From a virus: a stretch of 25,989 nt of DNA. Both the position numbers and the translations under genes were made by a program. Below, in pieces: positions 7,498 to 25,989 of this stretch. How positions within the stretch are numbered: position 1 is the stretch's first letter; the number at the start of each line of letters is the position of its first letter. The stretch is from the IMG/VR virus record IMGVR_UViG_3300048872_000029, positions 1 to 25,989 of that record. The stretch is one strand, 5' to 3'. The notes beneath the pieces are model-generated. The model was not told the origin of the DNA and made no database searches. It saw only the letters and a program-made list of their open reading frames with translations.

Positions 7498-7799
7498 AGC
7501 CGTCGCCGAAGCGGATCCAACTCCGTCGCACCAAGGGCTGGAAAAAGCCGCGCAACACAGTCGTGGTCGCGCGCCCGTCGAAGTGGGGGAATATCTGGAA
7601 GGTCGGCACGCATGGTAACCGGGAGTTCTGTTTCGCGCAGTTCGCGCAGTTCTTTCCCATCGGCTGCTTGAGCATCACGCCCGCGATGGCGAAGGCCGAG
7701 CTGCGCGGAAAGAACCTCGCCTGCTGGTGCAAGCTGCCGAAGCCACGCGAGCCAGACGTGTGTCACGCGGCAGTGTTGCTGGAGGTTAGCAACCGATGA
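7494..7799 (+). CDS. DUF4326 family protein, 101 aa
   Basis: Recognised by RIQLRRTKGWKKPRNTVVVA, then RPSKWGNIWKVG, an ELRGKNLACWCKL segment and the C-terminal CHAAVLLEV. This is the PF14216 pattern, whose Cys residues and conserved Arg/Trp/Gly-Asn motif suggest a small metal- or nucleotide-binding protein. Function of the family is not established, though it is frequent in phages. The middle Cys-rich FCFAQFAQFFPIGC insertion is unusual. Start GTG 7494 (GTGA). Confidence 0.8.
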   Translation: MKPSPKRIQLRRTKGWKKPRNTVVVARPSKWGNIWKVGTHGNREFCFAQFAQFFPIGCLSITPAMAKAELRGKNLACWCKLPKPREPDVCHAAVLLEVSNR

Positions 7800-9517: not shown

Positions 9518-9699
9518 TCTGCATGCGCTGGCCATCGTGCATGGAGCACGAGAACCACCACCACGAACCTGACGGCGGCGTCGTGTTCGACCCGATCGCG
9601 GACCCGCGCGAGAACGGCGCCCACTCCCGCACCTCGCCCGACGGCAGTGTGACGGTCACGGTGCCGTGCGACGAGGTCAGCGGGGAGCTGGAGCCATGA
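9514..9699 (+). CDS. small His/Asp-rich hypothetical protein, 61 aa
   Basis: GTG 9514 overlaps the previous stop (GTGA) with GGAGG about 12 bases upstream; in-frame ATGs at 9523 and 9541 are alternatives. The product has a Met/Cys-rich start (ICMRWPSCMEHENHHHEPDG) and a beta-rich end (SPDGSVTVTVPCDEV). The His cluster could bind metal. The reading frame is supported mainly by its coupled position. Confidence 0.45.
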   Translation: MICMRWPSCMEHENHHHEPDGGVVFDPIADPRENGAHSRTSPDGSVTVTVPCDEVSGELEP

Positions 9700-12081: not shown

Positions 12082-12299
12082 AGCGCCGCCGAGACGTCGG
12101 CAAGGTGCCGATGCCAGAGATGGCGGTAGCCCAGTGCGCGCCTTCGCCGCCGGTCGACCACAACGAGATCGTGCGCCGAATCGCCAAGCTCGAAGGCATG
12201 CTCGCGCTGCTCTACGACACCTGGTTCGAGGGCTGCGATGTGGTCCGCACGACGATCGGCGCCGAGATATCGAAGCTCCGCCTCGGGGTACGATGGTGA
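12078..12299 (+). CDS. hypothetical protein, 73 aa
   Basis: ATG 12078 overlaps the previous stop (ATGA). A basic N-terminal patch (KRRRDVGK) is followed by a helix with leucine spacing (NEIVRRIAKLEGMLALLYDT), possibly a dimerising helix, and a shorter C-terminal helix. Two in-frame Cys. No family recognised. Confidence 0.55.
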   Translation: MKRRRDVGKVPMPEMAVAQCAPSPPVDHNEIVRRIAKLEGMLALLYDTWFEGCDVVRTTIGAEISKLRLGVRW

Positions 12300-12541
12300 A
12301 TGCTGCGCCCAGCCCCGCCGACTTCTGGCGCAGCCTACCGCCCGAGGACGCGATCGAGTGCCAGCGCGACCTGCTGGCATGGGGATCGGCCTGGGCGCGC
12401 ATCGGGTCGGACGGTGTCAAGCACCGCATCCCGCCGTCGGACTGGGAAGACAAGCTGGGGGTGACGCCGCCGGATGGAACGGAACGAGTGAGCCACGCGG
12501 ATTCGTTCTGGTGGCGAACGCCAGAGGAATGGATCCGATGA
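12293..12541 (+). CDS. hypothetical protein, 82 aa
   Basis: ATG 12293 overlaps the previous gene by seven bases; GTG 12296 is an alternative that would give a GTGA overlap. The product is Trp-rich (FWRSLP, AWGSAWARIG, FWWRTPEEWIR). A mixture of polar helix and aromatic loops suggests a protein-protein interaction module. Stop overlaps the next ATG. Unassigned. Confidence 0.6.
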   Translation: MVNAAPSPADFWRSLPPEDAIECQRDLLAWGSAWARIGSDGVKHRIPPSDWEDKLGVTPPDGTERVSHADSFWWRTPEEWIR

Positions 12542-12630
12542 TCGTCTTCCGGCCGTTCCCTCCGACGTGCCCGACGTGCGGGTCGGCCGTGATCCCTCTC
12601 CACGGCTGCGTGAATGGATGCAAGCGGTGA
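12538..12630 (+). CDS. 30-aa zinc-ribbon microprotein
   Basis: ATG 12538 to TGA 12628-12630 encodes 30 residues with CPTCG and C..GC near the end, a miniature two-knuckle zinc site. ATGA and GTGA overlaps on both sides argue that it is translated. It joins the set of very small Cys-rich proteins in this region. Confidence 0.5.
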   Translation: MIVFRPFPPTCPTCGSAVIPLHGCVNGCKR

Positions 12631-12758
12631 AGAGCCGCTACGACCGATATATCGCGCTCCGATGCGCTCTCGAACGTTGCGACTGGTACAGCGACCGTTA
12701 CCAATGGTTGTTCGAAGCGTGGAATCGCGTCGGCGGCTTGATCTATCCGGATGCGTGA
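12627..12758 (+). CDS. small hypothetical protein, 43 aa
   Basis: GTG 12627 overlaps the previous stop (GTGA). The product, MKSRYDRYIALRCALERCDW and onward, is rich in Tyr, Trp and Arg and forms one or two amphipathic helices. The same frame could start at ATG 12618. It is the last gene before the terminase and is separated from it by 21 bases. Confidence 0.5.
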   Translation: MKSRYDRYIALRCALERCDWYSDRYQWLFEAWNRVGGLIYPDA

Positions 12759-12779
12759 GCGGTGAGAGACGAGCCGTGA

Positions 12780-14414
12780 ATGTCGTTCATCCTAAAGCAC
12801 TACTCGCACGAGCTGCTGAAGCGGGAGGCTGATCCAGAGCGCGAGATCAGGAAGGTCTTCAAGGCCGAGGAGTTCGCCGCCGGCCACGTCGAACAGCTCG
12901 CGTTCCTGAACGACCGAGCGCCATGGCAGCACGTCATGTGCGCCAGGCAGAGCGGCAAGAGCTGGGGCTGCGACGGGAAACTGTTCGAGAACGCGCAGAA
13001 CTACTCACGCTCGACGAACCTCCTACTGGGCATCAAGGGGACGGGCGTCCGGGTCAACAACTGGATCCCGATCTGGCAGCAGGGCGTGTGCGAGCGCTAC
13101 TCACTCTCGCCCGACTGCCACAACGAGAGCCAGATGCTGACGGTGCTGCCCAACGAGGCGCGCGTCATGTTCGCCGGCACGGACGACCTGACGAACGTCA
13201 AGAAGTACCTCGGAAACCGGCTGCACAACTGCGTCGTCATCATCGACGAGTGCCAAGATCAGCCCGAGCACGTCCTGAAGTACATCCTGACGGTGCTGCT
13301 GCCGCCCATGTGTACGCCGACCACCCAGATCATCATCGCGGGCGTGATCCCCGAGATGCCGGTCGGCTACTTCCTCGACCTGGCCGAGTACGACGCCGAA
13401 TCGAAGACGGGCGGCAAGGGCCCGGGCTACTCGCACCACGCCTGGGCGCGCGCGGCCAACGTCCACACGCCCGAGGCGATGGATCAGCTCCGGGACTACT
13501 GCAAGCGGCACAACATCTCGATGGACGACCTGACGATCCAGCGCGACTGGTTCAAGCGGCGCGTCTGGAGCCGCACCGCGGGCGCCTACAAGTACCGCCC
13601 AGAGTTGAACGGCTACCCGCCGTCGCTGCCCGAGTGGCTGGCCGAGGCGTACGCCAGGTTCGAGACCGAAGGCACCGGGAAGCACGAGCTGATGTTCGCG
13701 CACCCGATGCTGGAAGCCGACGACGGCGCGCTCTACGGGCTGATGGCCGCCGAGCCCGACCCGGGGATGACGCTGTTCGCCTTCGCGCTCGACCCGGGGG
13801 CGACAACCGACCGCGCATCGGTGCAGGGCTGGGCCTGGGGCGACAAGTCGCGGGACGTAAAGCACATCCTTGACTGGACTACGCCGCGGGGCGTGGGGCT
13901 GAGCACCAGCCAGATGTTCGCGGTGATGGGCTGGGCGCAGAAGGTGTTCAGCGGCTACGCCGGCCCGCGCGGCGGGATCATCGACTGGCGGTACGACGCA
14001 GGCAGCTCGCAGAACACGATCGACAACCTGATGAACGACTACGGGATCCCGGTCGTGCTGGCGGCGAAGAAGGCCGACCTGAAGGGGCAGGTCGACCGGA
14101 ACAACGACCTGCTCGAACAGGGGCGCGCGAAGGTCATGCTCGGCTCGGCACTGGAACAGGACTACCAGCGGGCCCGCTGGGATCCCGAGGCGCGCGCGCG
14201 GAAGCAGTTCAGATGGGCGACCTCCTGGCACCCGGATCCGGCCGACGCGGCCCGCTACGCCCTGCAGCGCTACTTCGACGCCTACGTGGCGCCGCCGGCA
14301 CCGCCCAAGGACGACCTGGAGCGGCACCGGGCCGAGGTGCGGGCCACGCTGGAGGAGCGCCGCAAGGCCGAAGAGGGCGACGACGACGGTATGACCGGCA
14401 CGGATTGGGGCTGA
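12780..14414 (+). CDS. terL: terminase large subunit, 544 aa
   Basis: The motor-nuclease that drives DNA into the prohead and cuts the concatemer. The ATPase domain shows Walker A in CARQSGKS (residues 54-61) and Walker B in VVIIDE (152-157). The RNase H-like nuclease domain has Asp338 in ALDPGA, Asp402 and Asp406 in IIDWRYDAGS, and Asp489 in DPADAARY. A Cys/His-rich intermediate region and an acidic C-terminal tail (EEGDDDGMTGTDWG) follow the usual plan. Length is normal. The ATG at 12780 has a weak ribosome binding site. No small terminase subunit was recognised with confidence. Confidence 0.93.
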   Translation: MSFILKHYSHELLKREADPEREIRKVFKAEEFAAGHVEQLAFLNDRAPWQHVMCARQSGKSWGCDGKLFENAQNYSRSTNLLLGIKGTGVRVNNWIPIWQQGVCERYSLSPDCHNESQMLTVLPNEARVMFAGTDDLTNVKKYLGNRLHNCVVIIDECQDQPEHVLKYILTVLLPPMCTPTTQIIIAGVIPEMPVGYFLDLAEYDAESKTGGKGPGYSHHAWARAANVHTPEAMDQLRDYCKRHNISMDDLTIQRDWFKRRVWSRTAGAYKYRPELNGYPPSLPEWLAEAYARFETEGTGKHELMFAHPMLEADDGALYGLMAAEPDPGMTLFAFALDPGATTDRASVQGWAWGDKSRDVKHILDWTTPRGVGLSTSQMFAVMGWAQKVFSGYAGPRGGIIDWRYDAGSSQNTIDNLMNDYGIPVVLAAKKADLKGQVDRNNDLLEQGRAKVMLGSALEQDYQRARWDPEARARKQFRWATSWHPDPADAARYALQRYFDAYVAPPAPPKDDLERHRAEVRATLEERRKAEEGDDDGMTGTDWG

Positions 14415-14416
14415 TC

Positions 14417-14446
14417 GTGCAGGGTAGCCCGGCCACCCTGGCGTGG
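14417..14446 (+). repeat. conserved start-codon hairpin element, copy 1
   Basis: GTGCAGGGTAGCCCGGCC continues with ACCCTGGCGTGG. CAGGGT (14420-14425) pairs with ACCCTG (14435-14440) around a nine-base loop, and the element ends with the GTG start (14443) of the next gene, two bases after the stem. An in-frame TAG at 14425-14427 rules out an earlier start. No Shine-Dalgarno is present. The same element recurs at 18253 and 25600 in the same orientation. Confidence 0.8.
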
Positions 14447-14742
14447 ATCTACCGAGCGTCGATGACCTGCGGGCGATCTTCGTAGCGGCGAGGGAGAACG
14501 GGATCACGCGCCTCCGGCTCGGCGAGCTGGAGTTCGACCGCCAGGCGGCCCCCGCGCCCGATCTGCTCGACGCGATCAATAAGGCCGCGCCGCTGCCGGC
14601 CGACGAGGACCCCATCGCGATCATCCGCGGGACCGTGCGCCCGAAGGCCCACGCCGAGCCCCAGGACATCCTGGAGGCGATGGCCGCGGGCCAGCCGATC
14701 GTCGGGCCGATCTCCCAACCAGACCCAACGGTTCCGCAGTGA
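14443..14742 (+). CDS. hypothetical protein between terminase and head genes, 99 aa
   Basis: GTG 14443 is the only start available after the in-frame stop at 14425, and it lies at the end of the conserved hairpin element. The N-terminal half (LPSVDDLRAIFVAARENGIT then RLRLGELEF) looks like a small alpha-beta unit of the kind found in phage connector or packaging genes. The C-terminal half is Pro/Ala-rich and probably flexible. I recognise no family. Its place after terL and before a structural gene suggests a minor head or packaging component. Confidence 0.7.
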   Translation: MDLPSVDDLRAIFVAARENGITRLRLGELEFDRQAAPAPDLLDAINKAAPLPADEDPIAIIRGTVRPKAHAEPQDILEAMAAGQPIVGPISQPDPTVPQ

Positions 14743-14757
14743 CCGACAGGAGCGCAG

Positions 14758-15384
14758 ATGCAGGCAATTGACGGAGTGCTTGGCAACCGCTGGCCCCGCG
14801 GGTTCTATCGCGCCTACGCCGAGACGGCGGCCATTGCGCCGGCAGCGAACGCGATCATGGCGGCCTTCCGGTTCGCGGACATCAAGAACTTCGCCACGAT
14901 CCTGCGTGTGTGGCTGACGGTGAACGTCGCCACCGCCGTCACGGCACAGCGCACCGATCCGATGCGCCTCTTCTTCGCCCGCGCCTACACGGTGCGCGAT
15001 TCGACGAACGCCACCGCAGTGGCGATCAGCGCAGCGATGCAGAAGATGCGCACGGGTGAGCTGGACTCGTTGCTGGCCACCGCCGCAGGGGGCAACTTCG
15101 ACGTCGCGAACGCAGCCGCCGGTCTGACCGGTGGAACCAAGACGGTCGACACGAATCCGATGGGGGCAAAGGGATTCAGCCAGCAAGCGCTGGCGGCCCT
15201 GGGCACCGGCATGGAGGGGGATATCTACGTGGGCGCTCCGCAAGGATCTCATCCGTTCGTACTGCTGCCGCCGGTACCGGGGAGCGGCGAGGGTCTGCTG
15301 GTGCAGTGGGGCGCGACCGCGCTCGCGACCGGCACGGTGACTGTCGGCGTCGGCGTCGAGTGGGCGGAATCGACGATCGCCTGA
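14758..15384 (+). CDS. putative virion structural protein, 208 aa
   Basis: ATG 14758 follows ACAGGAGCG. The N-terminal ~60 residues are helical (GFYRAYAETAAIAPAANAIM). The long middle is Ala/Gly/Thr-rich, and the C-terminus is beta-rich with ATALATGTVTVGVGVEWAES. A head-decoration or adhesion role would fit this fold-like pattern. No family is recognised with certainty. It precedes the portal gene by seven bases. Confidence 0.55.
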   Translation: MQAIDGVLGNRWPRGFYRAYAETAAIAPAANAIMAAFRFADIKNFATILRVWLTVNVATAVTAQRTDPMRLFFARAYTVRDSTNATAVAISAAMQKMRTGELDSLLATAAGGNFDVANAAAGLTGGTKTVDTNPMGAKGFSQQALAALGTGMEGDIYVGAPQGSHPFVLLPPVPGSGEGLLVQWGATALATGTVTVGVGVEWAESTIA

Positions 15385-15391
15385 GGAAAGA

Positions 15392-17329
15392 GTGCCCTTC
15401 GAGCTGCAAACAGGGCGCTGGTGGGACGCCGATGAAGCTTCCCTACCGAATACGCTGTCGGGCTGGGCGTCGCACCTGGAGTCTTTCGACTTCGAACGCC
15501 GATCGAAGAACCTGATCTTCGCCCGCCTGGCGACGAACCGAGACCTGCCGAACATCTACGGGCTGTCGCTGACGCGGACGAACATGCGCGCGCTCGACTT
15601 CCGCGACTGGAAGGCGCCCGTGTTCAACGTGACGGGCTCGTCAATCGAGACGCTCGTCAACAAGGTCGGGAGGAACAAGCCCTGGGTCCTGTTCCTCACC
15701 GACGGCGGCGACTTCTCGGCGCGCATGGCCGGCAAGCGCCGGTCGCGTTTCGTGGACGGCGTCTTCCACGAGACGGGGACCTACAAGCTCACGCGGCAGA
15801 TGTTCCAGGACGGCCTGACGTACGGAGACGGGTTCATCAAGGCGACCAAGTCGCTCGACGGCAAGAGCATCGTTCACGACGTTGTCCTGGCCGACGAGCT
15901 GCTGATCGATCCGTGGGATTCGCTCTACTTCGGCAAGTGGCCGCGGTCGCTGATCCATCGGACGTTCGTCAACCGTTCTGACCTGCTGGCCATCTTCGGC
16001 GATGACGAGCAGGCGCGCTTCGCGATCGAGACGGCGCCCGGTTCGTTCCAGGGCCCCATGTGGGGCGGCATGTCGTCGAACGCGCAGTCGGCGATGGTGG
16101 CCCTCCTGGAGGCATGGAAGCTTCCCGACGCGGACGGCACGCCAGGGCGGCATGTCATGTGCGTCAGCGACCGGCTGGCGCTGGTCGACGAGCCGTACAA
16201 GCGGAAGAAGTACCCGTTCGTGAAGTTCTCCTGCGTCAGCGCGGGCCGCGGGTTCTGGAACATCGGCATCCCGGAGATCCTTGGGCCGTTCCAGGCGAAC
16301 ATCAATCGCACGCAGCAGGTCATCGACGACTGCCAGCGGCGCATGTCCACGGGGCGCTGGCTGGTGCCGACCGGCAGCGGCGTGACGGACGACGCGCTGG
16401 CGTCGAAGGCCGCCGGCATCATCCGCCACAACCCGAACCTGCCGCCGCAGTTTGTGGTTCCCCAGGCGGTCCCGGGAGATCTGTATGCGCACCTCGACAA
16501 GACGATCGAGCGCGCCTACAAGCGCGTCGGGATCTCCGAGCTGGCCGCACAGGCCATGAAGCCCGCCGGCCTCAACAGCGGCGAAGCGCTGCGGGCGTTC
16601 GAGAGCGCCGAGAGCGAGCGTTACGTCACGCTGGGGATGCAGCTTGAGGAAGCGGTGGTCGACCTGGCCGAGTTGGACCTGGAGCTGGCCGAGGAGATCA
16701 GGCCAACGGTGCGCGCGCCGCGGTCCGGCGGGATCGACGTCATCGACTGGTCGGAGCTGGAGAAGATCAAGGAGACGAGGGCCGTCATGAAAGCCTTCCC
16801 GATCTCCAGCCTGCCGACGTCGCCCGCGGGGCGTCTCCAGCGTGCCGCCGAGATGTTCCAGATCGGGCAGATCACGAAAGAAGACTACCTGCGAATCATC
16901 GACTACCCCGACACCCAGGCGGTCATCGATCTGCAGACTGCGGCGCGTGATTCGATCGACTGGATGCTTGACAGGATCGTCGAGGAGGGCATCCCCGAGA
17001 TGCCCGAGCCGTACCAGCCGCTCGACGTGGCGATCCAGGTCTGCCAGAACCGCTACCTGCGTGAGCGCACGCTCGGCTGCCCCGAGGAACGGCTGGAGCT
17101 GCTGCGCCGGTTCATGGATGCCGCAAAGACGCTCCAGCAGAAGATCGCCAGCGGCGGCACCATGGGCGCGCCGAATCTGACTAACGCCCAGCAGACGGGC
17201 GCCGCGCTGCCGCAGCCGCCGGGCGGACTGCCCCCGCCCGTGGCACCGGTCATCGGCCAGGGCGCCGCGGGTGGCGACGTGAACCTCGGCCCCGTATCTT
17301 CATCGCAACCGCTGCCGCAAGCAGCCTGA
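15392..17329 (+). CDS. portal protein, 645 aa
   Basis: The portal dodecamer forms the channel for DNA at the head vertex. The length, the gene order (terL-portal-scaffold-capsid) and stretches such as RSKNLIFARLATNRDLPNIY, DELLIDPWDSLYFGKWP, GFWNIGIPEILGPFQANINR and AGLNSGEALRAFESAESERY fit podovirus-type portals. The C-terminal ~60 residues are Gln/Pro/Gly-rich and may form the barrel or a flexible tail. The GTG at 15392 was chosen for GAGGAAAG just upstream. No close paralogue is seen in the window. Confidence 0.85.
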   Translation: MPFELQTGRWWDADEASLPNTLSGWASHLESFDFERRSKNLIFARLATNRDLPNIYGLSLTRTNMRALDFRDWKAPVFNVTGSSIETLVNKVGRNKPWVLFLTDGGDFSARMAGKRRSRFVDGVFHETGTYKLTRQMFQDGLTYGDGFIKATKSLDGKSIVHDVVLADELLIDPWDSLYFGKWPRSLIHRTFVNRSDLLAIFGDDEQARFAIETAPGSFQGPMWGGMSSNAQSAMVALLEAWKLPDADGTPGRHVMCVSDRLALVDEPYKRKKYPFVKFSCVSAGRGFWNIGIPEILGPFQANINRTQQVIDDCQRRMSTGRWLVPTGSGVTDDALASKAAGIIRHNPNLPPQFVVPQAVPGDLYAHLDKTIERAYKRVGISELAAQAMKPAGLNSGEALRAFESAESERYVTLGMQLEEAVVDLAELDLELAEEIRPTVRAPRSGGIDVIDWSELEKIKETRAVMKAFPISSLPTSPAGRLQRAAEMFQIGQITKEDYLRIIDYPDTQAVIDLQTAARDSIDWMLDRIVEEGIPEMPEPYQPLDVAIQVCQNRYLRERTLGCPEERLELLRRFMDAAKTLQQKIASGGTMGAPNLTNAQQTGAALPQPPGGLPPPVAPVIGQGAAGGDVNLGPVSSSQPLPQAA

Positions 17330-17347
17330 ACAAAAAGGAGAACCACC

Positions 17348-17506
17348 ATGAGCGATCAGAACGGACAAGACGCAGGAGAGGCGCTGAAGGCCAGCGTCAT
17401 CAAGGGCTACGAGGACGCGGCAAAGCGCGCCTACGAGCGGGCGAAGGCCGACACCGACACCACGAAGGCGCCCCCGGACGCAGCCCCGAAGGCGACGGGG
17501 ACCTGA
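17348..17506 (+). CDS. small charged virion-region protein, 52 aa
   Basis: ATG 17348 has an excellent site (AAAAAGGAGAACC). The product is an Ala/Lys-rich helix (SVIKGYEDAAKRAYERAKAD) with a Thr/Pro-rich tail. A Tyr-x-Arg-Ala heptad-like motif recurs in the next gene, so the two look like diverged duplicates. It is not a recognised family; a scaffold-associated or DNA-binding minor protein is possible. Confidence 0.65.
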   Translation: MSDQNGQDAGEALKASVIKGYEDAAKRAYERAKADTDTTKAPPDAAPKATGT

Positions 17507-17508
17507 AC

Positions 17509-17742
17509 GTGGAGAAGGACCCGAAGGGCGAGACCGAACCGGACAACGACAAGGTCGACCCCGGCCCGAAGACGGGCGTGAAGGAGGCGGCGAAAACCGC
17601 CTACAAGCGCGCCGACATCGCCGACCCGTTCGCCCTGCAGACTTCCGTCCAGGCCGAGTACGACGCCGCGATGAAGCGGTCGTATCGTCGCGCCAGCACG
17701 GGAAAGGACGACGAGAAAGGAAAGGTGGGAAGTGGAACCTGA
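17509..17742 (+). CDS. small charged virion-region protein, 77 aa
   Basis: GTG 17509 starts two bases after the preceding TGA. Two copies of a related motif are visible, VKEAAKTAYKRA and YDAAMKRSYRRA, similar to DAAKRAYERA of the preceding gene. The rest is highly charged (EKDPKGETEPDNDKVDPGPK). It overlaps the next gene by eleven bases. Role unknown. Confidence 0.6.
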   Translation: MEKDPKGETEPDNDKVDPGPKTGVKEAAKTAYKRADIADPFALQTSVQAEYDAAMKRSYRRASTGKDDEKGKVGSGT

Positions 17743-17923
17743 TCTGAGCGAACGAGTCCTCAAGGCACTGCGCCAGGCCGCGCGCGATGCGCGGTCAGCG
17801 GACGCCCAACAGGAGGCACACGAGCTGGTCGCCATCCTGAGCCCGCCCACGGCGCCTCCAGAAGCAGCGCCCGAACAACCCGCTCAGGAGCCGGAACGTG
17901 AAGGCAAAGCTCGGAAGCGGTAA
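17732..17923 (+). CDS. small helical protein, 63 aa
   Basis: GTG 17732 follows AGGAAAGGTGGGA. The first half is a helix (LSERVLKALRQAARDARSAD) with an Ala-rich continuation, and the end is Pro/Glu-rich and basic (EREGKARKR). It may be a disordered assembly helper. No family recognised. Confidence 0.55.
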   Translation: MEPDLSERVLKALRQAARDARSADAQQEAHELVAILSPPTAPPEAAPEQPAQEPEREGKARKR

Positions 17924-18077
17924 GCGCTTCGCCGCGCTCGAAAGCAGCATCGCCGCCCGCGGCGACGTCCGGAACCCGGGCGCCGTCGCGGCGGCGGTTG
18001 GGCGCAAGAAGTACGGCGCGAAGAAGTTCAACTCGCTGTCGCACAAGCGCCCACGTCTCAAGGATTACGTGGGCTGA
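17898..18077 (+). CDS. small basic phage protein, 59 aa
   Basis: GTG 17898 follows CAGGAGCCGGA and overlaps the preceding gene by 26 bases. The product (GSGKRFAALESSIAARGDVR, GAVAAAVGRKKYGAKKF) resembles a short conserved protein often found in phage head regions, with the signature GRKKYG..KF. The C-terminus RPRLKDYVG resembles the end of the next gene (RPRLAEYVK). Basic and likely DNA- or head-associated; exact role unknown. Confidence 0.65.
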   Translation: MKAKLGSGKRFAALESSIAARGDVRNPGAVAAAVGRKKYGAKKFNSLSHKRPRLKDYVG

Positions 18078-18247
18078 TGCCCTACGCCAGCATGGCTCAG
18101 GACCGGTTCTTCCACGCCGCCGAGAAGCGGGGGGAGATCAAGGCAAGCACGGTCAAGGAGTACGACAAGGCGACGAACTTCAAGAACCTGCCGGCCCGCG
18201 TCGGCAAGAAACGCCGCCGGCCCCGTCTGGCCGAATACGTGAAATAG
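18077..18247 (+). CDS. small basic phage protein, 56 aa
   Basis: ATG 18077 shares a base with the previous stop (TGATG). It begins MPYASMAQDRFFHAAEKRGE, a pattern (S.AQ.RFFHA) recurring in small phage head-region proteins, followed by TVKEYDKATNFKNLPARV and a basic end. With the preceding gene it forms a pair sharing the C-terminal RPRL..YV motif. Function unknown. Confidence 0.65.
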   Translation: MPYASMAQDRFFHAAEKRGEIKASTVKEYDKATNFKNLPARVGKKRRRPRLAEYVK

Positions 18248-18252
18248 GTCCC

Positions 18253-18282
18253 GTGCAGGGTACGCGCGCCACCCTGGCGTGG
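18253..18282 (+). repeat. conserved start-codon hairpin element, copy 2
   Basis: GTGCAGGGTACGCGCGCC continues with ACCCTGGCGTGG. The stem CAGGGT (18256-18261) / ACCCTG (18271-18276) and the two-base gap to the GTG (18279) are as in copy 1. Loop bases differ between copies while the stem is preserved. The scaffold-like gene begins at its GTG. It follows the TAG of the preceding gene by five bases. Confidence 0.8.
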
Positions 18283-19403
18283 GAGACACCCCAGGAGACG
18301 CGACCGCCGGCAGCGGCGGCGAAGGGAGCCCGGATCCGGGCGCGGCAGCCGCCGACCCAGTGACGCAGGGAGGCTCGGAGCCGAGCGGCGCTCATACCGC
18401 CGACCCAGCGGGTTCGACCCCCGCCCCTGCAACCGAAGGCGGCGAGACACCGCCCGCAGCCAGCGCCAAAGGCAAGAACGGCAAGGCGAAGGAGAAGCCG
18501 CCCGCCGAGCCGGCCGCGAAGTCAGGCCCCGATCTGACGGCCCGCCTCGCCAGCATGTCGAAGGACAACCGCGAGGCGCGGAAGGCCCTCCAGCAGACGA
18601 ACAGAGCGCTGGAACAGGCCAGCCAGCGGCTGACCGACTTCGAGAGCCTGATCCAGCGCGCCCAGTCCGGGGACGACACGGCGATCGACGACGTGTACAA
18701 CCGCTTCGGGCTCAGCTTCGAGCGGATCGTCAACTACCACGCCGGCAAGCCCGACCCGACGCCCGAGCAGGCGCGCGACGCCGAGATCGCAGCGCTGCGG
18801 AAGCGGCTCGACGATGAAGCCGGGGCACGCCAGAGGGAGCGCGACGAGGCGAAGGTTGCGTCTGATGCGGCCCGCGAGCAGGCCGCCCGCGGCGAGTACG
18901 TCGGCCTCTGTGCCCAGCACATCAAGACAGCGGCCGAGAAGGCCGAAATTTGCGGACGCCTCGGCGACGAGGCCGCGCAAGCGGTCTTCGCGCGAGTCGT
19001 GAGTGCCTGGGCCGAGGCGGGGCAGCCCGAGCTGATGCCGGGCGAGCTGGAAGAGGCCATCGACAAAGCAGTCGAGGTGCAAGAGCTGGAGTACGAGAAG
19101 CGCGGACAGCTTCTCGTCAAGAAGCTCTCCAACGGTCACGCCAACGGCACGAACGGTGCCGGCAAGAATTCTGATCTGCCTGCCGGTCTCACCGGCAGCA
19201 AGTTGAGCGACACGGACGAAACCATTGTGAACGGGCTCATCGACAAGTCGGCCCCCGGAGCGAATTCGCAACGCGCGAAGCCCCGGTCAATCAGCAGCCA
19301 AATGGGGGGCTCGGCGCCGCCGAAGACCGCCCCACGCGGCGGCATGGACGCGCGCGACGCACTACGGGACACCCTCGCGCAGTTCAATCTGCTGCCGCGC
19401 TGA
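18279..19403 (+). CDS. putative scaffolding protein, 374 aa
   Basis: Located between portal and major capsid, where the scaffold gene normally lies. The first ~80 residues are Pro/Ala/Gly-rich and disordered. They are followed by long charged helices with heptad spacing (KDNREARKALQQTNRALEQA and AALRKRLDDEAGARQRERDE), then a helical tail ending DALRDTLAQFNLLPR that could contact the capsid. No protease motif (Ser/His triad) was found, so it should assemble the prohead and leave it rather than be cleaved by a linked protease. Start GTG 18279 at the hairpin element; no Shine-Dalgarno. Confidence 0.75.
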   Translation: MGDTPGDATAGSGGEGSPDPGAAAADPVTQGGSEPSGAHTADPAGSTPAPATEGGETPPAASAKGKNGKAKEKPPAEPAAKSGPDLTARLASMSKDNREARKALQQTNRALEQASQRLTDFESLIQRAQSGDDTAIDDVYNRFGLSFERIVNYHAGKPDPTPEQARDAEIAALRKRLDDEAGARQRERDEAKVASDAAREQAARGEYVGLCAQHIKTAAEKAEICGRLGDEAAQAVFARVVSAWAEAGQPELMPGELEEAIDKAVEVQELEYEKRGQLLVKKLSNGHANGTNGAGKNSDLPAGLTGSKLSDTDETIVNGLIDKSAPGANSQRAKPRSISSQMGGSAPPKTAPRGGMDARDALRDTLAQFNLLPR

Positions 19404-19441
19404 CGCCGACTTCCAAGCCCGTCCCGTAGGAGCCAACCGCA

Positions 19442-20677
19442 ATGATTGCGGACATCGTCGCAGCCGTCGAACCGATCTACAAGCAGTGGTACTCGTCCAG
19501 TTACGAGAACATGTTCTATCGCGACCGCCCCGCGATGGGCATGATCGCCAAGGAACGGGCAGGGGGCGAGCAGGTCAAGCAGCCCATCAAGATCGCGCAG
19601 GGACCTGGCCAGTCGGCCACGTTCGCGAACGCGCAGACCAACACCGGTCTGTCGACGCGGCGTCCGTTCCTGGGCGACTGGGGCCTGGACTACTCGCTGG
19701 CTCGCGTCTCCAACACGCTCATCGAGCTGTCGGAGAACAGCAAAGGAGCGATCGTCAAGGCGCTGGCGGACGAGACCGAATCGGCCGTCGATGCCCTGGC
19801 GCAGCGCTTCGAGCACGACATGTTCAGGTCGGGCTACGGCGACGTCGGCGTGGTCTCGTCCGGGCAGGGAACCCCGACGATCACACTGACGCTGCGGTCG
19901 GACACGCAGAACTTCTTCCCCGGGCAGGTTCTGGTCGCCGGACCAGCGGTCAACTCGGGCGTGCTGCTGAACGCTGGCGCGACGGCGCTGGTGTCGGCCG
20001 TCGACCGCGACGCCGGGACGGTGTCGAGCGCGGCCAACTGGACGGCGCAGATCGCGGGTCTCATCGCGACCAGCGTCCTGTTCCAGCAGGGCGACCGGAC
20101 CTCCGCAGCGACGCCCACGCCGCTGAAGGTGGTTGGATTCGCAGGCTGGCTGCCGCTCGTGGCGCCGACCGGCGGCGACAACTTCTTCGGTGTCGACCGC
20201 TCGCTCGATCCGGTCTCGCTGGCCGGTGTTCGTGTGACCGGCATCGGGAAGCCGGTCAGCCAGGCCATCTACGACCTGGCTGTGCGCATCGGCGAGAACG
20301 GCGGGGCGCCTGACGTCGCGTTCGTGGCGTTCGACTCCTTCGGCAAGCTGGCGGAGGAGCTGGACAACCGGGCGAACTACGAGAACATCCAGGGCGCCGG
20401 GATCACCATCCTGTACGAGGCCATCACGGTCTCGGGGCCGAAGGGCCGCATCAAGGTGTTCCCGTCGACCTACTGCCCCATGGACCGCCTGTTCGTGCTG
20501 ACGAAGCGCGACTGGACGATCTACTGCGGCGGCGGCTCGAACCCGATGTTCCCGTCCCTGAAGGGCGTGTCGCTGCTCGACGTGTCCAACGCGGACCAGG
20601 TCGAGGTGCGCCACAAGACGCTGGCGCAGCTCATGTGCGCTGCCCCGGGCCACTCGGGAGTCTCGCAGCTCCAGTAG
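19442..20677 (+). CDS. major capsid protein, 411 aa
   Basis: The expected HK97-fold shell protein. It follows the scaffold, has normal length and starts with a helix (MIADIVAAVEPIYKQWYSSS), then E-loop-like and beta segments (EQVKQPIKIAQGPG, FLGDWGLDYSLARVSNTLIE), a long helix (GAIVKALADETESAVDALAQ) and a C-terminal domain (FVAFDSFGKLAEEL, RIKVFPSTYCP, RLFVLTKRDWTIYC). The ATG at 19442 has TAGGAG 11 bases upstream. HK97 fold is inferred from gene order and layout. Confidence 0.85.
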   Translation: MIADIVAAVEPIYKQWYSSSYENMFYRDRPAMGMIAKERAGGEQVKQPIKIAQGPGQSATFANAQTNTGLSTRRPFLGDWGLDYSLARVSNTLIELSENSKGAIVKALADETESAVDALAQRFEHDMFRSGYGDVGVVSSGQGTPTITLTLRSDTQNFFPGQVLVAGPAVNSGVLLNAGATALVSAVDRDAGTVSSAANWTAQIAGLIATSVLFQQGDRTSAATPTPLKVVGFAGWLPLVAPTGGDNFFGVDRSLDPVSLAGVRVTGIGKPVSQAIYDLAVRIGENGGAPDVAFVAFDSFGKLAEELDNRANYENIQGAGITILYEAITVSGPKGRIKVFPSTYCPMDRLFVLTKRDWTIYCGGGSNPMFPSLKGVSLLDVSNADQVEVRHKTLAQLMCAAPGHSGVSQLQ

Positions 20678-20695
20678 TCGGTGACGTGACGCTCG

Positions 20696-20714
20696 GCGCG
20701 TAGCAGTAACGCGC
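20696..20714 (+). terminator. hairpin after the major capsid gene
   Basis: GCGCGT (20696-20701) pairs with ACGCGC (20709-20714) around AGCAGTA in the gap after the capsid stop. No T-run follows, so it is more likely an RNA-stabilising or processing structure or a weak attenuator than a full terminator. Confidence 0.35.
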
Positions 20715-20751
20715 GCCGGGCGCCGCGACCGGCCCTGAAAGGAACAGGACC

Positions 20752-21144
20752 ATGGCAAATCCCAAGGCAATCACGAAGGGCGTCCAGCAGGTGGAGGGGG
20801 GCCTTTACGACCTCTACTTCGAGTTCCCGGTCGGCGCGACGGGCGCCGTCGGCACCCTGGTGCGCAACCGAGAGATCTCGGCAATCACGCGGCTGGGCGC
20901 AGGCAACTACCGCGTCTCTCTCCGAGAGGCGTGGAACGCCATCATGGATTGGGGCATCAACGTCCTGGACGCGACTCCCGCCGGCACCGACGGACAGAAC
21001 GTCGTGGCCAGCGTGAGGACGCCTGGCGGCGCGACGCCGGTCTTTGAGTTCTTCACCCGGCAGGTCAGCGGTGCCGCCGCCGATCCGCGCAACGGTGCGG
21101 TGATCGTCGGTCGTATCCGTCTCCAGAACGGGCAGAGGGTGTAG
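20752..21144 (+). CDS. putative head decoration or minor structural protein, 130 aa
   Basis: ATG 20752 follows AAAGGAACAGGACC. Beta-rich with few charges (YDLYFEFPVGATGAVGTLVR, GAGNYRVSLREAWNAIMDW) and a long C-terminal strand pair (VFEFFTRQVSGAAADPRNGA). The layout resembles small beta-sandwich proteins encoded after the capsid gene in many phages, often decoration or adaptor proteins. No exact family name is given. Confidence 0.65.
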   Translation: MANPKAITKGVQQVEGGLYDLYFEFPVGATGAVGTLVRNREISAITRLGAGNYRVSLREAWNAIMDWGINVLDATPAGTDGQNVVASVRTPGGATPVFEFFTRQVSGAAADPRNGAVIVGRIRLQNGQRV

Positions 21145-21147
21145 CCC

Positions 21148-21408
21148 ATGGCCTTCCCGGGGAGAAAGCCGCTGTCCGTGATGGTCGCGTCCATGGCCCC
21201 CAAGGGGGGCAAGGCCGACAACGAACCGGGCAGCGACGACGAAGCCGACGAGGCGACGCCGGACCACGAGCCCGACGAGGCCGAGCTGGCCGCCTGCCAG
21301 GACGTCATCGACGCCATGGCGAAGCGCAGCCCCGAGGCGCTGTCCGAGGCCCTTCATCACTGGATGGAGCTGGCCGGCTACGGGCAGCACGAAGGCGGCG
21401 AGGAGTAG
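21148..21408 (+). CDS. small acidic protein, 86 aa
   Basis: ATG 21148, three bases after the previous stop, with GAGGGTG upstream. A basic N-terminus (GRKPLSVMVASMAPKGGK) is followed by an acidic middle (SDDEADEATPDHEPDEAE) and a helical end (LSEALHHWMELAGYG). Probably a minor head or assembly protein; no family recognised. Confidence 0.6.
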   Translation: MAFPGRKPLSVMVASMAPKGGKADNEPGSDDEADEATPDHEPDEAELAACQDVIDAMAKRSPEALSEALHHWMELAGYGQHEGGEE

Positions 21409-21420
21409 GCGTCAAGGTTC

Positions 21421-21475
21421 CCGGGCGGTGCGTTCTCCCGATGGCGTCTCCCGTCGGCTAGGGCGCACCGCCCGG
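21421..21475 (+). terminator. 12-bp perfect inverted repeat between head and tail genes
   Basis: CCGGGCGGTGCG (21421-21432) and CGCACCGCCCGG (21464-21475) form a perfect GC-rich stem around a 31-base loop that itself contains a CCGA/TCGG stem. It fills most of the 89-base gap before the adaptor gene. There is no T-run, so termination would need a factor; an RNA processing or stability element is equally possible. Confidence 0.5.
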
Positions 21476-21497
21476 TAGTTATCGAGGAGACGATCCG

Positions 21498-22166
21498 ATG
21501 GCCCAGACCCTCGCGCAGCTCAGAGCCGAAGCGCAGCAGCGCGCGAACCAGGAGAGCAAGACGCTCATCCTGACGCCGGAATGGAATAGGTACATCAATG
21601 AGGCAGTCGGCGAGCTGTACGACCGGATCCTGTCGTCCTATCCGCACTACTATCTGTCCAGCCTGGCGTTCACGCTTGCCGGCTCGAACCAGCAGAGCAT
21701 CGCGGCTCTGACGCCGCTGTTCTACAAGCTGGCCGGGCTCGACTTCATGTTCAGCGGCACCCAGCGCCCCCAGACGGTCCACCCGATCAGCTTCCTGGAG
21801 CGGAACAGGTTCGGTAACCTGAACTTCGCCGGCAATTACACGCTCTGGTACAGGCCGCCCCCGCCCGTGCTGGTCGCAGACGGTGACACGCTCGACTTCA
21901 TCCTCGACAACTGGTCGAAGTACATCTCGGTCACGGCGGCGATCCAGGGCGCGACCAAAGAGGAGTCGTCGACCGACGCCCTGGAGCGCGAGCAGACAAA
22001 GGTGATCGCGCAGATCGACGCCGCCGCGCCGAACCGAGACGCCGAGCCGAGCCAGGCCGCTGACCTTTCCACCTCTCCGTATGGCCTCGGGGAATGCGGG
22101 CGACGGTACATGCTGGAGGGCAGCAACCTGATCGTCCTGGGCTCGGATGCCTGGGACTGGGCCTGA
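21498..22166 (+). CDS. head-to-tail adaptor protein, 222 aa
   Basis: ATG 21498 follows CGAGGAGACG. The start MAQTLAQLRAEAQQRANQES and WNRYINEAVGELYDRILSSY are helical, like adaptors that bind below the portal in short-tailed phages. A central beta part (PQTVHPISFLERNRFGNL, YTLWYRPPPPVLVADGD) precedes a C-terminal helix. The place between capsid genes and the giant tail gene supports an adaptor role. Confidence 0.7.
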   Translation: MAQTLAQLRAEAQQRANQESKTLILTPEWNRYINEAVGELYDRILSSYPHYYLSSLAFTLAGSNQQSIAALTPLFYKLAGLDFMFSGTQRPQTVHPISFLERNRFGNLNFAGNYTLWYRPPPPVLVADGDTLDFILDNWSKYISVTAAIQGATKEESSTDALEREQTKVIAQIDAAAPNRDAEPSQAADLSTSPYGLGECGRRYMLEGSNLIVLGSDAWDWA

Positions 22167-22168
22167 CG

Positions 22169-25144
22169 GTGGCGCCAGGGCTGGATAAGCGGGTCGTCCC
22201 GATCCTGCTGCGAGGGCTCGACGAGGGGCAGCCGCGACAGATCGGGATCGCCGGATCGCTCGACGTGTTGCAAAACATGATCGTCCAGAAGGCGATCGAC
22301 GGCGGCTACGAGTTCGCCCCTCGCCCCGGCACGACGAACGTGTCAAAGACTGCTGACGTGGGATCCATCACCACAGGGTTGCGGCTCGGAACGCTCGGGC
22401 CGGCTCTGATCCTATTGACGGGGACCTCCTGCTATCGGAAGGCCGTGGACCAGTGGCACCAGGTCGACGCGACGGCTCCGACGATCGGCGTCGACACCAG
22501 GATGATCAGCAGCGGCGCGATCGTGGCCGAGTCGTCCGACTACGCGTACGTCAACGGCTACACGCTGGGCGTCGTCTCCTATTACGACGGCAAGCTCTGG
22601 AGCGTTCGCGTCGAGGCGGCAGATTCGACCGGTGCCACCGTGTTCAGCACCGTCCTGGCGACGTCGGCCACCAGCGTGATCGGGTCGGTCAAGATCGCAG
22701 TGTCCAGCACCTTCGCGGTCGTGTTCTGGGCGCCGACCGACTCCAACTCAATCGTGGCGTCGAAGTTCGACAGTGCTGCGCCGAGCGCGATGGGCAGCCC
22801 GGTTGTCGTCACGACCGCGGACGCCGGCCTGCTCTACGACGTGCAGACAGTGGGCGCGACCGGGCGAATCGTCGTCACCTATTCCAGCGGCGGCGCTATC
22901 ACCCAGCGCTTGCTGACGGTGTCATCGATGGCGGTCAGCGGCGCGACGACGTACGCCGGCCTGAACACGCTAGTCACATTCGGCCTGCTCACGAACGACT
23001 ACTCCTCGAACACGATCTACCTTGGGACGATCGCCGCCGCGGGGCTCCAGGTCTCGACGTTCGACGGGACGACGCTGGCGCTCGGCGCGACGACGACCTA
23101 CGACGCCACCCAGACGGTGGGGTTCAACCTGTCCGGCTACCGCACGGGCGCCAGCGTGACCGTGTTTTTCACGTCAGCGCCAACCCCGCCGCCCGGGATC
23201 TCCGTCTGCGACTACCTGATCAAGACGTCGACCGGTGGCGCGGCCAGCACCATCCAGCGGTCGATGTCGCTCGCCTCGCGCGTGGCCCTCGTCGGCAGCA
23301 GCCTCTACGCACTCGTCCAGTATCGCGCTGGGACAGGTGCGTCGGTCGCGCAGAGCAGCACCTATTTTCTGATGAATCTGTCGAATGTGCGCTCCGTCGG
23401 GATGGCACTGAAAAACCTTGGCTCCATCCGTTTCTACGCGAGCGGTGGTAACCATCTCCAGAACCTGCGCGCGGGTGCGTCGGCGTCCACGCTGCTGACG
23501 GCTGGCTTCAAGGTCATCGCGGTAGCGACCGACACCGCCTCGTTCGCGCCGTATGTGGCAGGAGCGGCGATCACGTTCACGCTCCAGGACACGAACATCG
23601 GGCGGCCTGTCGAGTTGAACAGCGTGCTGCACATCCCTGGCGCCCAGCCGTACCTGTACGACGGCCTCACGCTGACGGAGCACGGGTTCCCGATCGATCC
23701 CGACCCGGGCGGACTGAGCCCGGCGGCAGGCGGTGGGATGACATCGTCCGTGGTGTACACGTACCTCTACGTCGATGAATGGACTGACGCCGCCGGCAAC
23801 CTGTGGCGCTCGAACAGAAGCCTGCCGCAGTCGGTGACGATGGGAGCAGCCGACACGAAGGTCACACACTCGATCCCGACGCTGCGCCTGACCAGGAAGA
23901 CGAACGTTTCTAAGGGCATTTACCGCACGCTCGCGAACGGAGACGGGTCGGTCTACTACAAGGTCAGCTCAACGACTGCGCCGCTGTTCAACGATCCGAC
24001 GGTCGACCGAATCTCGTTCGTCGACACCGTGTCAGACGCCACCGCCGTGACGGGAGAACCCATCTACTCGCCCAACGACAACGCCGGCAGCGTCCTGCCG
24101 AACATTGCCCTGCCGGGGTGCCGAGTGATGGCCGTCCATCGCGGGCGTCTCCTCGCCGCCGGCATCGAAGGCGACACCAGCGCGATCTGGTTCTCGAAGG
24201 ATGTTGTCCCTGGCTTCGGCGTCGAGTTCTCCGACTTCCTCGTGTCGCGCATCACTGGCGTCGAGCCGATCACCGCCGTGGGCTCGATGGACTCCTACGC
24301 GGTCGCCTGCACGAAGACGCAGAGCTGGGGCAGCATCAACGAGTACCCGGACGACACGGGCGCGGGCGGCGTGCTGGTGTTCCAGCAGCAGAGCGACAGC
24401 ACGGGCTGCGCGATCGTCGGCCTGCTCGGACGCAACGACCTAGGCATGATGACGTATGGTGGCTTCGACAAGGGTATCTGGCGGGCATCTCGCGGCCTGT
24501 CCTGGGACTACATCGGTAACCCGGTCGAAGACACCATGAAGACCGTTACGCCAGTGGCGTTCCTGTCCGTGCCCGGCCAAAACCAGATGCGCGTCGTCGG
24601 CGGGGTGACCGCCTTCGTGTTCGAGGCGATCTACGGGCAGTGGGCGATCTGGAGCTATCCGACAGCCCCAGCCGCCTTCGTCGATGCGGTGCTGTGGAAT
24701 GGCTCGCCGGCTTACCTCTGCTCGGAAGGCACCGTGATCGTGGAGTCGACCATCGCGAGCGGCGTTATATCCGACGCCGGCACGATGCCCCAGCACACGC
24801 TCAAGCTCTCCGGTCTCAGCCTGTTCGGTGTGGCCGGTTTCGGGCGGCTGTACATCACTCAGATCACCGGCAGGCCGAGCGGGTCACTCGGATTCACTCT
24901 GAACCTGGCTCAGGAGTTCGATGGGGTCGCAATCCCGACGAAGACGGAGGTCTACACCGGCAGCGAGACGGAGCTGTTCGTGGAAGTCGACCCCGGGACG
25001 ATGGGCAAATCGTCGCGCTACGACCTGACGATCTCGGACACTGCGAACGGAGCCAACTCCGCGTTCACGGTGGCGGCGATTACCGCCCTGGTCGGGACCA
25101 AGGCGGGGCTCTCGAAGCTCCCCACGGCCCGCCGCGCCACCTGA
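22169..25144 (+). CDS. large tail nozzle / tail stabilisation-like protein, 991 aa
   Basis: GTG 22169, two bases after the adaptor stop, has only a weak binding site; translation may be coupled. The start (LLRGLDEGQPRQIG, DGGYEFAPRPGT) follows the pattern of podovirus nozzle proteins (T7 gp12 and P22 gp10 type), which begin with a conserved G..N...+G.+ RPG segment. A long beta-rich, Thr/Ser/Val-rich middle follows. The C-terminal ~330 residues hold the propeller-like signature MAVHRGRLLAAGIEGDTSAI with repeated small beta blades (YGGFDKGIW, GQWAIWSYP). At 991 residues it is longer than the usual 470-800, so extra domains are inserted. It probably closes the tail and retains packaged DNA. Confidence 0.7.
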   Translation: MAPGLDKRVVPILLRGLDEGQPRQIGIAGSLDVLQNMIVQKAIDGGYEFAPRPGTTNVSKTADVGSITTGLRLGTLGPALILLTGTSCYRKAVDQWHQVDATAPTIGVDTRMISSGAIVAESSDYAYVNGYTLGVVSYYDGKLWSVRVEAADSTGATVFSTVLATSATSVIGSVKIAVSSTFAVVFWAPTDSNSIVASKFDSAAPSAMGSPVVVTTADAGLLYDVQTVGATGRIVVTYSSGGAITQRLLTVSSMAVSGATTYAGLNTLVTFGLLTNDYSSNTIYLGTIAAAGLQVSTFDGTTLALGATTTYDATQTVGFNLSGYRTGASVTVFFTSAPTPPPGISVCDYLIKTSTGGAASTIQRSMSLASRVALVGSSLYALVQYRAGTGASVAQSSTYFLMNLSNVRSVGMALKNLGSIRFYASGGNHLQNLRAGASASTLLTAGFKVIAVATDTASFAPYVAGAAITFTLQDTNIGRPVELNSVLHIPGAQPYLYDGLTLTEHGFPIDPDPGGLSPAAGGGMTSSVVYTYLYVDEWTDAAGNLWRSNRSLPQSVTMGAADTKVTHSIPTLRLTRKTNVSKGIYRTLANGDGSVYYKVSSTTAPLFNDPTVDRISFVDTVSDATAVTGEPIYSPNDNAGSVLPNIALPGCRVMAVHRGRLLAAGIEGDTSAIWFSKDVVPGFGVEFSDFLVSRITGVEPITAVGSMDSYAVACTKTQSWGSINEYPDDTGAGGVLVFQQQSDSTGCAIVGLLGRNDLGMMTYGGFDKGIWRASRGLSWDYIGNPVEDTMKTVTPVAFLSVPGQNQMRVVGGVTAFVFEAIYGQWAIWSYPTAPAAFVDAVLWNGSPAYLCSEGTVIVESTIASGVISDAGTMPQHTLKLSGLSLFGVAGFGRLYITQITGRPSGSLGFTLNLAQEFDGVAIPTKTEVYTGSETELFVEVDPGTMGKSSRYDLTISDTANGANSAFTVAAITALVGTKAGLSKLPTARRAT

Positions 25145-25149
25145 ACAGA

Positions 25150-25176
25150 TTTTCAGCCGTTGCGCGTCATTATATA
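25150..25176 (+). promoter_or_regulatory. weak promoter candidate in an AT-rich gap
   Basis: TTTTCA (25150-25155) and TATATA (25171-25176) are spaced by 15 bases in the only clearly AT-rich gap of the late region, 19 bases before the lipoprotein start. Both boxes match only four of six consensus bases and the spacing is short. A small CTGAA/TTCAG stem overlaps the upstream stop codon. Confidence 0.2.
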
Positions 25177-25194
25177 GGGCGGCACGCTTGGGGC

Positions 25195-25596
25195 ATGCGG
25201 AACGCCATCCTGGTCCTTCTCCTGGCCGCCGGCTGCGCTCACGAGGCGCCGCCGTACACGGGCGTCACCTATGCCCAGGCACGCTGGGGCGCGCACATCA
25301 CGTTCTGCCGTGACTACGTCGCGCGCCCTGGCGCGAAGGACCCGGCGATCGTCGAGCAGTGCCGCGCAAGCGAGATCCAGGCCGCCGCGGAGGACGCAGC
25401 CGAGCGGGATCAGCTCCAGTCCGCGCGCCAGGAACGGGAAGACGCCGCTGCGGCCGACCGGCAGCAAGCCGCCATCAATACCATGTCGGCGGGCCTCCAT
25501 CAGTACGCGACCACCCCGCTGCCCCCGCCGATGTCGCCGACCGTGAATTGCACCAGTACGACCAGCGGCGACACCGTCTGGACGAACTGCCGCTGA
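25195..25596 (+). CDS. small lipoprotein, 133 aa
   Basis: A signal peptide with lipobox is seen at the start: MRNAILVLLLAAGC, Cys14 being the lipidation site. A mostly helical middle (EIQAAAEDAAERDQLQSARQ) and a Pro-rich segment follow. The end, TVNCTSTTSGDTVWTNCR, is a Cys-paired motif common at the C-terminus of small lipoproteins of Gram-negative bacteria and their phages. It would be anchored in the membrane of an infected host, perhaps for lysis or superinfection exclusion. A spanin role is not supported by a partner gene here. ATG 25195 has only a weak site (GGGGC). Confidence 0.65.
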   Translation: MRNAILVLLLAAGCAHEAPPYTGVTYAQARWGAHITFCRDYVARPGAKDPAIVEQCRASEIQAAAEDAAERDQLQSARQEREDAAAADRQQAAINTMSAGLHQYATTPLPPPMSPTVNCTSTTSGDTVWTNCR

Positions 25597-25599
25597 TCT

Positions 25600-25629
25600 G
25601 TGCAGGGTAACGGCGCCACCTTGGCGTGC
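25600..25629 (+). repeat. conserved start-codon hairpin element, copy 3
   Basis: GTGCAGGGTAACGGCGCC continues with ACCTTGGCGTGC. CAGGGT (25603-25608) pairs with ACCTTG (25618-25623); the single stem change relative to the other copies turns a G-C pair into G-U, so the RNA hairpin is kept. An in-frame TAA at 25608-25610 excludes an earlier start, and the GTG at 25626 begins the next gene. Confidence 0.8.
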
Positions 25630-25989
25630 CGTATGGACTGCCAGATCTCGGCGACGTCCCCGTAATCGGAGACATCTGGAAGGGGATCAAGCCGGCCAGC
25701 ACCGCGGGCCTCGATCAGGCAGCGGCCGATGCCAGGGCCCTGCAGCAGCAGTTCATCCAGCAGATGGGCCAGCAGCAGGGGACGCCGGGGCTCTCCTACG
25801 CCGGCTCCGCTCCGGTGCAGATGGCCACGTCGTCAGCCCCCGGGGCGCCGCCCCCGCCCGCCGCCGTGCTGCCGCCGACTGGCGCGCCCGGATCGCCCGG
25901 GAGCGGCACTGCATACCAGCAGCCCGGAACGTCCCTGCCGACAGCACAGCCTCTTCCTGGCACCGGGGGAACGCCCAGGACGCCAGGCG
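25626..25989 (+). CDS. Pro/Gln-rich virion protein (5' part, runs off window)
   Basis: GTG 25626 is the only start after an in-frame TAA inside the hairpin element. The frame is open to the window edge. The N-terminus, MPYGLPDLGDVPVIGDIWKG, is followed by a helix rich in Ala/Gln (ARALQQQFIQQMGQQQ) and then a long Pro/Gly/Ser low-complexity region (APGAPPPPAAVLPP, GAPGSPGSGTAYQQ). Such N-terminal low-complexity regions occur in internal virion or ejection proteins and fibres of short-tailed phages. Function cannot be fixed from this fragment. Confidence 0.7.
   Translation, partial: MPYGLPDLGDVPVIGDIWKGIKPASTAGLDQAAADARALQQQFIQQMGQQQGTPGLSYAGSAPVQMATSSAPGAPPPPAAVLPPTGAPGSPGSGTAYQQPGTSLPTAQPLPGTGGTPRTPG

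Follow-up and report, generated by a model that had tools for sequence, protein, structure and literature searches.

A 26-bp element is found three times in the IMG/VR virus record IMGVR_UViG_3300048872_000029, and each copy abuts the GTG start codon of a gene in the virion region. The entire record, 25,989 bases long, was analysed and is referred to here as the window. What is a sequence repeated so precisely in front of virion genes for: does it act in the mRNA at translation, on the DNA at transcription, or not at all? An initial annotation proposed that the element takes the place of the Shine-Dalgarno (SD) sequence, either as an RNA hairpin or as a site for a protein. Comparison with related phages suggests that the element is probably, if by no means certainly, a late promoter or a promoter core, marking the start of the transcription units of virion genes.

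The element in the window and in related phages

The first copy (14417-14442) abuts the start at 14443 of a small gene that follows the terminase gene terL, the second (18253-18278) the start at 18279 of a putative scaffold gene, and the third (25600-25625) the start at 25626 of a Pro/Gln-rich virion-region gene. All three lie on the plus strand and, with the start codon included (14417-14445, 18253-18281 and 25600-25628), read GTGCAGGGTA-N6-CCACC(C/T)TGGCGTG. The positions, the strand and the abutment to GTG that the initial annotation had given are exact. When the 26 bases upstream of the predicted window starts were compared in register, the three copy pairs were the three best of all 1176 pairs (22, 22 and 21 of 26 matches). 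Over all pairs, the mean is 7.56 matches (sd 2.5), and the runner-up to the three copy pairs reaches 17. No further copy is present on either strand of the window, even with six mismatches allowed. Gene starts were taken from a simple home-made predictor and from inspection; for the gene after terL and the scaffold gene they are supported by N-termini that are alike in the relatives (xLPxAEDL and MGDxxGD, respectively).

Relatives were found by searches with the terminase, capsid and portal proteins, and fall into five lineages beside the window. These are represented by G1 (53,030 bases, G2 being of this type but shorter), G4 (53,681 bases, its elements shared by G3), G5 (51,830 bases), G6 (52,064 bases) and G7 (23,502 bases, to which L109 and L110 are more than 99% identical along most of their length). 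In all relatives, the capsid-position protein shares 84-88% identity with its window counterpart. All six lineages bear elements at corresponding sites, namely the gene after terL, the scaffold gene, the virion gene and a fourth site; copies 1 and 2 have orthologous copies in five relatives, and copy 3 also has orthologous copies in relatives. For the window, whose record lacks its right end, the fourth copy is predicted to lie ~6-7 kb past 25989. The further copies at gene starts of related phages, on which the initial annotation would have had its proposal judged, are thus found in five other lineages.

Each lineage has its own element sequence, with at least four copies in a record that covers all sites. 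In G1, the element is GTGCAGGGTA-N7-CGCATTGGC (four copies), and in G7 it is ACCGGGCACAAATCCCGG followed by a short tail (four copies). G4 carries GGTTCTGAGGGAT-NN-CGGGGCG-N-GGTT (four plus-strand copies and one on the minus strand), G5 carries variants of CGGGTACG...CGCC (four plus, one minus), and G6 carries TGGGTAC...GCGCTTT... (five plus, one of them weak, and one minus). Position helped in recognising most G5 copies and the weak ones of G4 and G6, so the counts given for these are less secure than those for the window, G1 and G7. The mean similarity of elements within a genome is 0.77-0.84 (lower in G5, at 0.55), while between most genomes it is 0.35-0.46, against a chance level of 0.36-0.39. 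Two pairs stand apart from this, window-G1 (0.74) and G5-G6 (0.53). Such a concerted change of all sites within a genome points to a trans-acting factor that differs between phages.

The repeat might be coincidental, or a mobile sequence without any regulatory function, and the pairwise E-values of the repeats in the window are indeed modest when taken alone (~0.002 to 0.02). This is, however, refuted by the comparative data and may be set aside as extremely improbable. The top three in-register pairs of G1 and G4 join the same three orthologous starts as in the window, and in G4 the sequence is a different one. No comparable start-register repeat was found in 51 other loci, mostly phages with a related capsid protein, where the best pairs have 12-19 of 26 matches and the sole value of 19 is a shared SD. 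Nothing beyond the element is common to the copies between -60 and +30. When three of the element patterns were scanned over 2.9 million viral contigs, matches were confined to the clade, apart from one (L113) that falls within a coding region of an unrelated phage.

Conservation, averaged over the copies within genomes, has a two-block profile. It rises at about -24, holds to -17 and dips from -16 to -13, and this upstream block is centred on a GGG at about -21. A second block, extending from about -12 to -1, is highly conserved from -12 to -6 and moderately so to +4. Upstream of -27 and after +4, conservation is at background.

Translation or transcription

The absence of an SD at these starts, to which the initial annotation drew attention, is true of the window but is not uniform in the clade. 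At each of the three window starts, pairing with the anti-SD amounts to -2.8 kcal/mol, which is weaker than in 86% of 291 other clade genes (median, -6.1 kcal/mol), and the SD is also weak at the element starts of G5 and most of those of G1. Moderate anti-SD pairing (-5 to -7.6 kcal/mol) is seen, in contrast, in G4 and for most elements in G6, all of which are rich in G, and also for a single copy in G1 (-6.0 kcal/mol).

The weak SD, together with the position of most copies directly at a start codon, is what a translational element would lead one to expect, that is, an RNA motif or hairpin standing in for the SD or recognised by a phage protein controlling the translation of virion genes. The window copies allow short stems to be drawn. 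Two candidates, CAGGGT/ACCCTG and CGCCA/TGGCG, were tested in the seven copies of the window and G1, and in neither stem has any pair changed on both sides. In CAGGGT/ACCCTG, one position is unpaired in all four copies of the sister phage G1. Both hairpins were rejected for want of compensatory changes. Folding z-scores for twelve regions range from -4.1, in window copy 3, which folds unusually well, to +1.0; most lie between -2 and +1, and shuffled sequences fold as well as the elements of G4. Since the stems show no paired changes and folding is mostly unremarkable, RNA structure is not the property that has been conserved.

The distance from the element to the start codon is also variable. 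Most copies, including those of the window, have a gap of 0 or 1, others have one of ~3-8 nt and two have one of ~50 nt, so that an exact ending at the start codon, as initially described, is the common case but does not extend to some of the relatives. In G1, the GTG at copy 20353 begins a frame of 11 codons, and for this reason the gene there is taken to start 8 nt further on. Three genes of G7 start ~4, 3 and 7 nt past the register point, the last of these at copy 14941. The genes next to copies G4 52349 and G7 20861 are orthologous and start ~50 nt downstream of the element, behind an SD, AAAGGGG (-7.2 kcal/mol); in G7, the element is also the start of a GTG frame of 12 codons. The weak G6 copy at 2517 is 10 nt upstream of a start preceded by AAAGG, where the pairing is weak (-3.5 kcal/mol).

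A gene that changes its orientation provides a further indication. This gene of the virion region encodes ~280 aa and is found in five lineages (19502-20344 in G1, L090), the G1 protein being 43-58% identical to the others. In G1 and G7, it is co-oriented and has no element of its own. In G4, G5 and G6, it is inverted, and in all three it has its own element on the minus strand. The divergent copies stand back-to-back: 44 bp separate the start codons in G5 and 47 bp the two ATGs in G6, so that both intervals consist of essentially just two elements, and in G4 the divergent copies are separated by only a few bases. A minus-strand gene that stands alone must have its own promoter, and outside the elements the nearest room for one would be in the adjacent coding sequence. 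Transcription is therefore favoured over translation, because the gap varies, the inverted gene has its own copy and the divergent copies lie back-to-back.

A purely translational role is unlikely on this evidence. It would leave the inverted gene in need of a promoter in an interval essentially filled by two elements, and it does not sit well with copies 8 or ~50 nt away from the true start, the genes at the latter distance being preceded by an SD. What stands of the initial annotation is a real, functional-looking signal associated with gene starts, for which its second option, a protein-binding site, is still likely; the hairpin replacing the SD is not borne out.

The proposed promoter and known systems

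From these comparisons, we propose that the late units begin at a two-part, promoter-like site in the DNA, one block lying at about -24 to -17 and the other at about -12 to -1. The 5' end of the mRNA may lie at the 3' end of the element or a few bases past it. Where the start codon stands at the end of the element, the message would be leaderless or nearly so and would need no SD; where a longer leader follows the element, an SD would precede the gene. The alternative of a transcription start inside the open reading frame (ORF), with the element as a -35/-10 pair, conflicts with the conserved N-termini and was rejected. The site would be read with the help of a co-evolving specificity factor, for example, a DNA-binding activator acting on the host RNA polymerase. 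That this factor is encoded by the phage is probable, because the sequence is unlike a host sigma-70 promoter and the copies change together between phages: no sigma-70-like promoter is found in the late region of the window (12000-25989), and the positions from -12 to -7 do not, by inspection, resemble the host -10 box.

It is tempting to go further and to see here a class of late promoters without sigma hexamers, in which a co-evolving phage factor other than a sigma factor or a polymerase sets the 5' end at the start codon and thus gives leaderless virion mRNAs; close relatives, with capsid-position proteins still ~85% identical, would then differ in specificity at all sites together. This more specific proposal is tentative, and rather doubtful in its full form. 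If the promoter reading is right, all late start sites would have been rewired together while capsid and portal proteins remained nearly unchanged, which would offer a natural series for studying the co-evolution of a regulator and its sites, and a further case of a phage virion programme that uses leaderless messages.

Several observations weigh against a promoter. The two blocks are unlike the -35 and -10 hexamers of any sigma factor known to us, and the upstream block is too close to serve as a -35. Sigma region 2 was not found in the phages of the clade, and matches to sigma region 4 occur in one G4 protein and, weakly, in G5 only. A search for a sigma-54 activator (PF00158) gave none in the phages, while the controls matched. 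A single-subunit RNA polymerase (PF00940) was not matched in the phages either, with the reservation that the control gave no match. In addition, the site of a regulatory protein that overlaps an unrecognised promoter would look much the same.

These searches also bear on particular candidates. A phage sigma factor common to the clade was rejected on the distribution of regions 2 and 4 just given. A sigma-54 promoter was rejected because a phage activator is absent and because the GG-N10-GC geometry counted from the conserved GGG is, by inspection, absent in the window copies; a host activator could still play a part. The largest predicted G1 protein outside the virion region (386 aa) is too small for a single-subunit RNA polymerase.

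T7-type late promoters, which are ~23 bp long, are repeated before late gene groups and are matched in sequence to the phage's own polymerase. The elements described here are likewise repeated before late gene groups and phage-specific in sequence, but no polymerase of that kind was found in the PF00940 search, whose control gave no match. T7-type transcripts, moreover, carry leaders with an SD. Bacterial leaderless genes, as far as is known, use ordinary host promoters, whereas no host-like -10 is visible in the elements. The likeness of such genes (PMC4633059, PMC3160421) to the present case is that a start codon at the 5' end of the mRNA would explain the missing SD. The leaderless reading would rest on the register between element and start and on the weak SD.

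Literature searches for a described phage system of the same form gave nothing useful. The nearest described objects are the start-associated sequences (SAS) and ESAS of cluster K mycobacteriophages (PMC3203893), which were overlooked when the initial annotation stated that no family of this form was known; the stoperators of cluster A mycobacteriophages are also close. The finding belongs among start-associated, phage-specific regulatory repeats. Like SAS and ESAS, the elements are short, asymmetric repeats directly 5' of start codons, mostly in one orientation and at corresponding genes across relatives; they lie a few bases upstream of the start codon, as SAS do. SAS have a single 13-bp consensus, GGGATAGGAGCCC, whose core is SD-like; most subclusters have 13-19 of them per genome, the majority away from structural genes (PMC3203893). 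The elements, in contrast, occupy 4-6 sites at virion units and have a wholly different sequence in most lineages, and the SAS consensus, allowing up to two deviations, is by inspection in none of the listed copies of any lineage. ESAS contain SigA-like -35 and -10 hexamers and a 15-17-bp imperfect inverted repeat (PMC3203893); the consensus varies from subcluster to subcluster, and ESAS are now interpreted as holding a putative SigA-like promoter (PMC11373665). Here, two asymmetric blocks stand in place of an inverted repeat, and the late region of the window has no sigma-70-like site.

Quite unlikely, too, is that the elements are operators of the stoperator type, asymmetric sites at which an immunity repressor silences the late units in a lysogen. 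An integrase-family protein in the window makes a temperate life style plausible, but there are only 4-6 sites per genome; all belong to late units and keep a nearly constant distance to start codons, a register that, as far as we know, is not a feature of stoperators. A separate promoter would not fit into the divergent intervals, which measure 44-47 bp, and no repressor was identified. The likeness to cluster A lies in asymmetric, mostly uniformly oriented sites, several per genome, with a consensus that is shared within a genome and specific to the phage (PMC6550527, PMC9283540), and in cluster A the distances between motifs track those between repressors (PMC6550527). Cluster A stoperators are 13-bp repressor sites that stop elongation and are spread across the genome (PMC9283540).

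If the element is a late promoter with a factor of its own, one speculative candidate for that factor is a 153-aa protein with a C-terminal helix-turn-helix (HTH), encoded at 7796-8257 on the plus strand (weak HTH_23 match, E 0.0056). Its gene is among the few non-virion genes present in all five lineages that cover the region, and it is plausible that it is the DNA binder among them. The structural model has three C-terminal helices, at low confidence (mean pLDDT 60.7). The window and G1, whose elements have the upstream block in common, do not differ in the presumed recognition helix, VGQGRVYRLLAKI. By element similarity, the window falls with G1, and G5 with G6; the genes of the HTH region give the same grouping, unlike terL, which joins G4 to G6. 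The correlation between element and HTH protein similarity is suggestive over five lineages. Because there are only these five, and because other genes of the region correlate equally well or better, the HTH protein is not singled out as the factor.

A separate observation concerns G4, in which 26678-27325 (L103) encodes a protein of 215 aa with an apparent XRE-type N-terminus and sigma-70 region 4 (E 3.7e-13) and without region 2.

The clade and the neighbouring genes

The window has a G+C content of 66.5%, and nearly all of its genes are on the plus strand. Its terminase, portal and capsid-position protein have no match among 50,697 annotated phage records, which held no cultured relative, and no prophage of the clade was found in the prokaryote genome contigs searched. 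If the promoter reading is right, the signal would for this reason be a handle on late regulation in an unstudied group.

The terminase large subunit, the anchor gene 5' of copy 1, is encoded at 12780-14414 on the plus strand (phrog_2, E 2.7e-16). The window also encodes a portal protein (phrog_156, E 1.6e-6) and a Dam-type methyltransferase, and the integrase-family protein mentioned above matches PF00589 (E 9.7e-14). All three genes downstream of the element copies are on the plus strand. The one 3' of copy 1 (14443-14742) encodes 99 aa, is found in the same place in all relatives and has no assigned function; a Pfam search with its product gave no match. The gene 3' of copy 2 (18279-19403, 374 aa) directly precedes the capsid-position gene, and it is from this position that it is taken to encode a scaffold, a PHROG search having given no match. 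Only the 5' part of the Pro/Gln-rich gene (25626-25989) is present 3' of copy 3, since it is cut by the end of the record; its G1 ortholog encodes 565 aa.

Other features of these phages are of interest in their own right. At 2651-3091, the window encodes a small protein in which the C-terminal HTH domain of DnaA is recognised (E 4.7e-8) and which has a relative in G1. Two small virion-region proteins (20752-21144 and 25195-25596) diverge much faster than the nearby capsid-position protein, with identities of ~30-47% compared to 84-88%.

A tRNA-Met-like structure, with a CAT anticodon and a short D-arm, lies within the 5' part of the scaffold ORF (window 18364-18434), and similar structures are present in other loci (L013 6451-6521, L014 8955-9026 and L016 4905-4978). 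All Rfam tRNA models score below the cut-off for it. In three lineages, the structure has an equal frame offset in the scaffold ORF, while in G7 it lies outside this ORF, between terL and the next gene. Its anticodon stem varies by paired changes. In the G6 record (L015), a minus-strand tRNA-like sequence that, by eye, has an apparent insert is found at ~9550-9680 in the orientation used here, where it sits upstream of a small cluster of minus-strand genes in the virion region.

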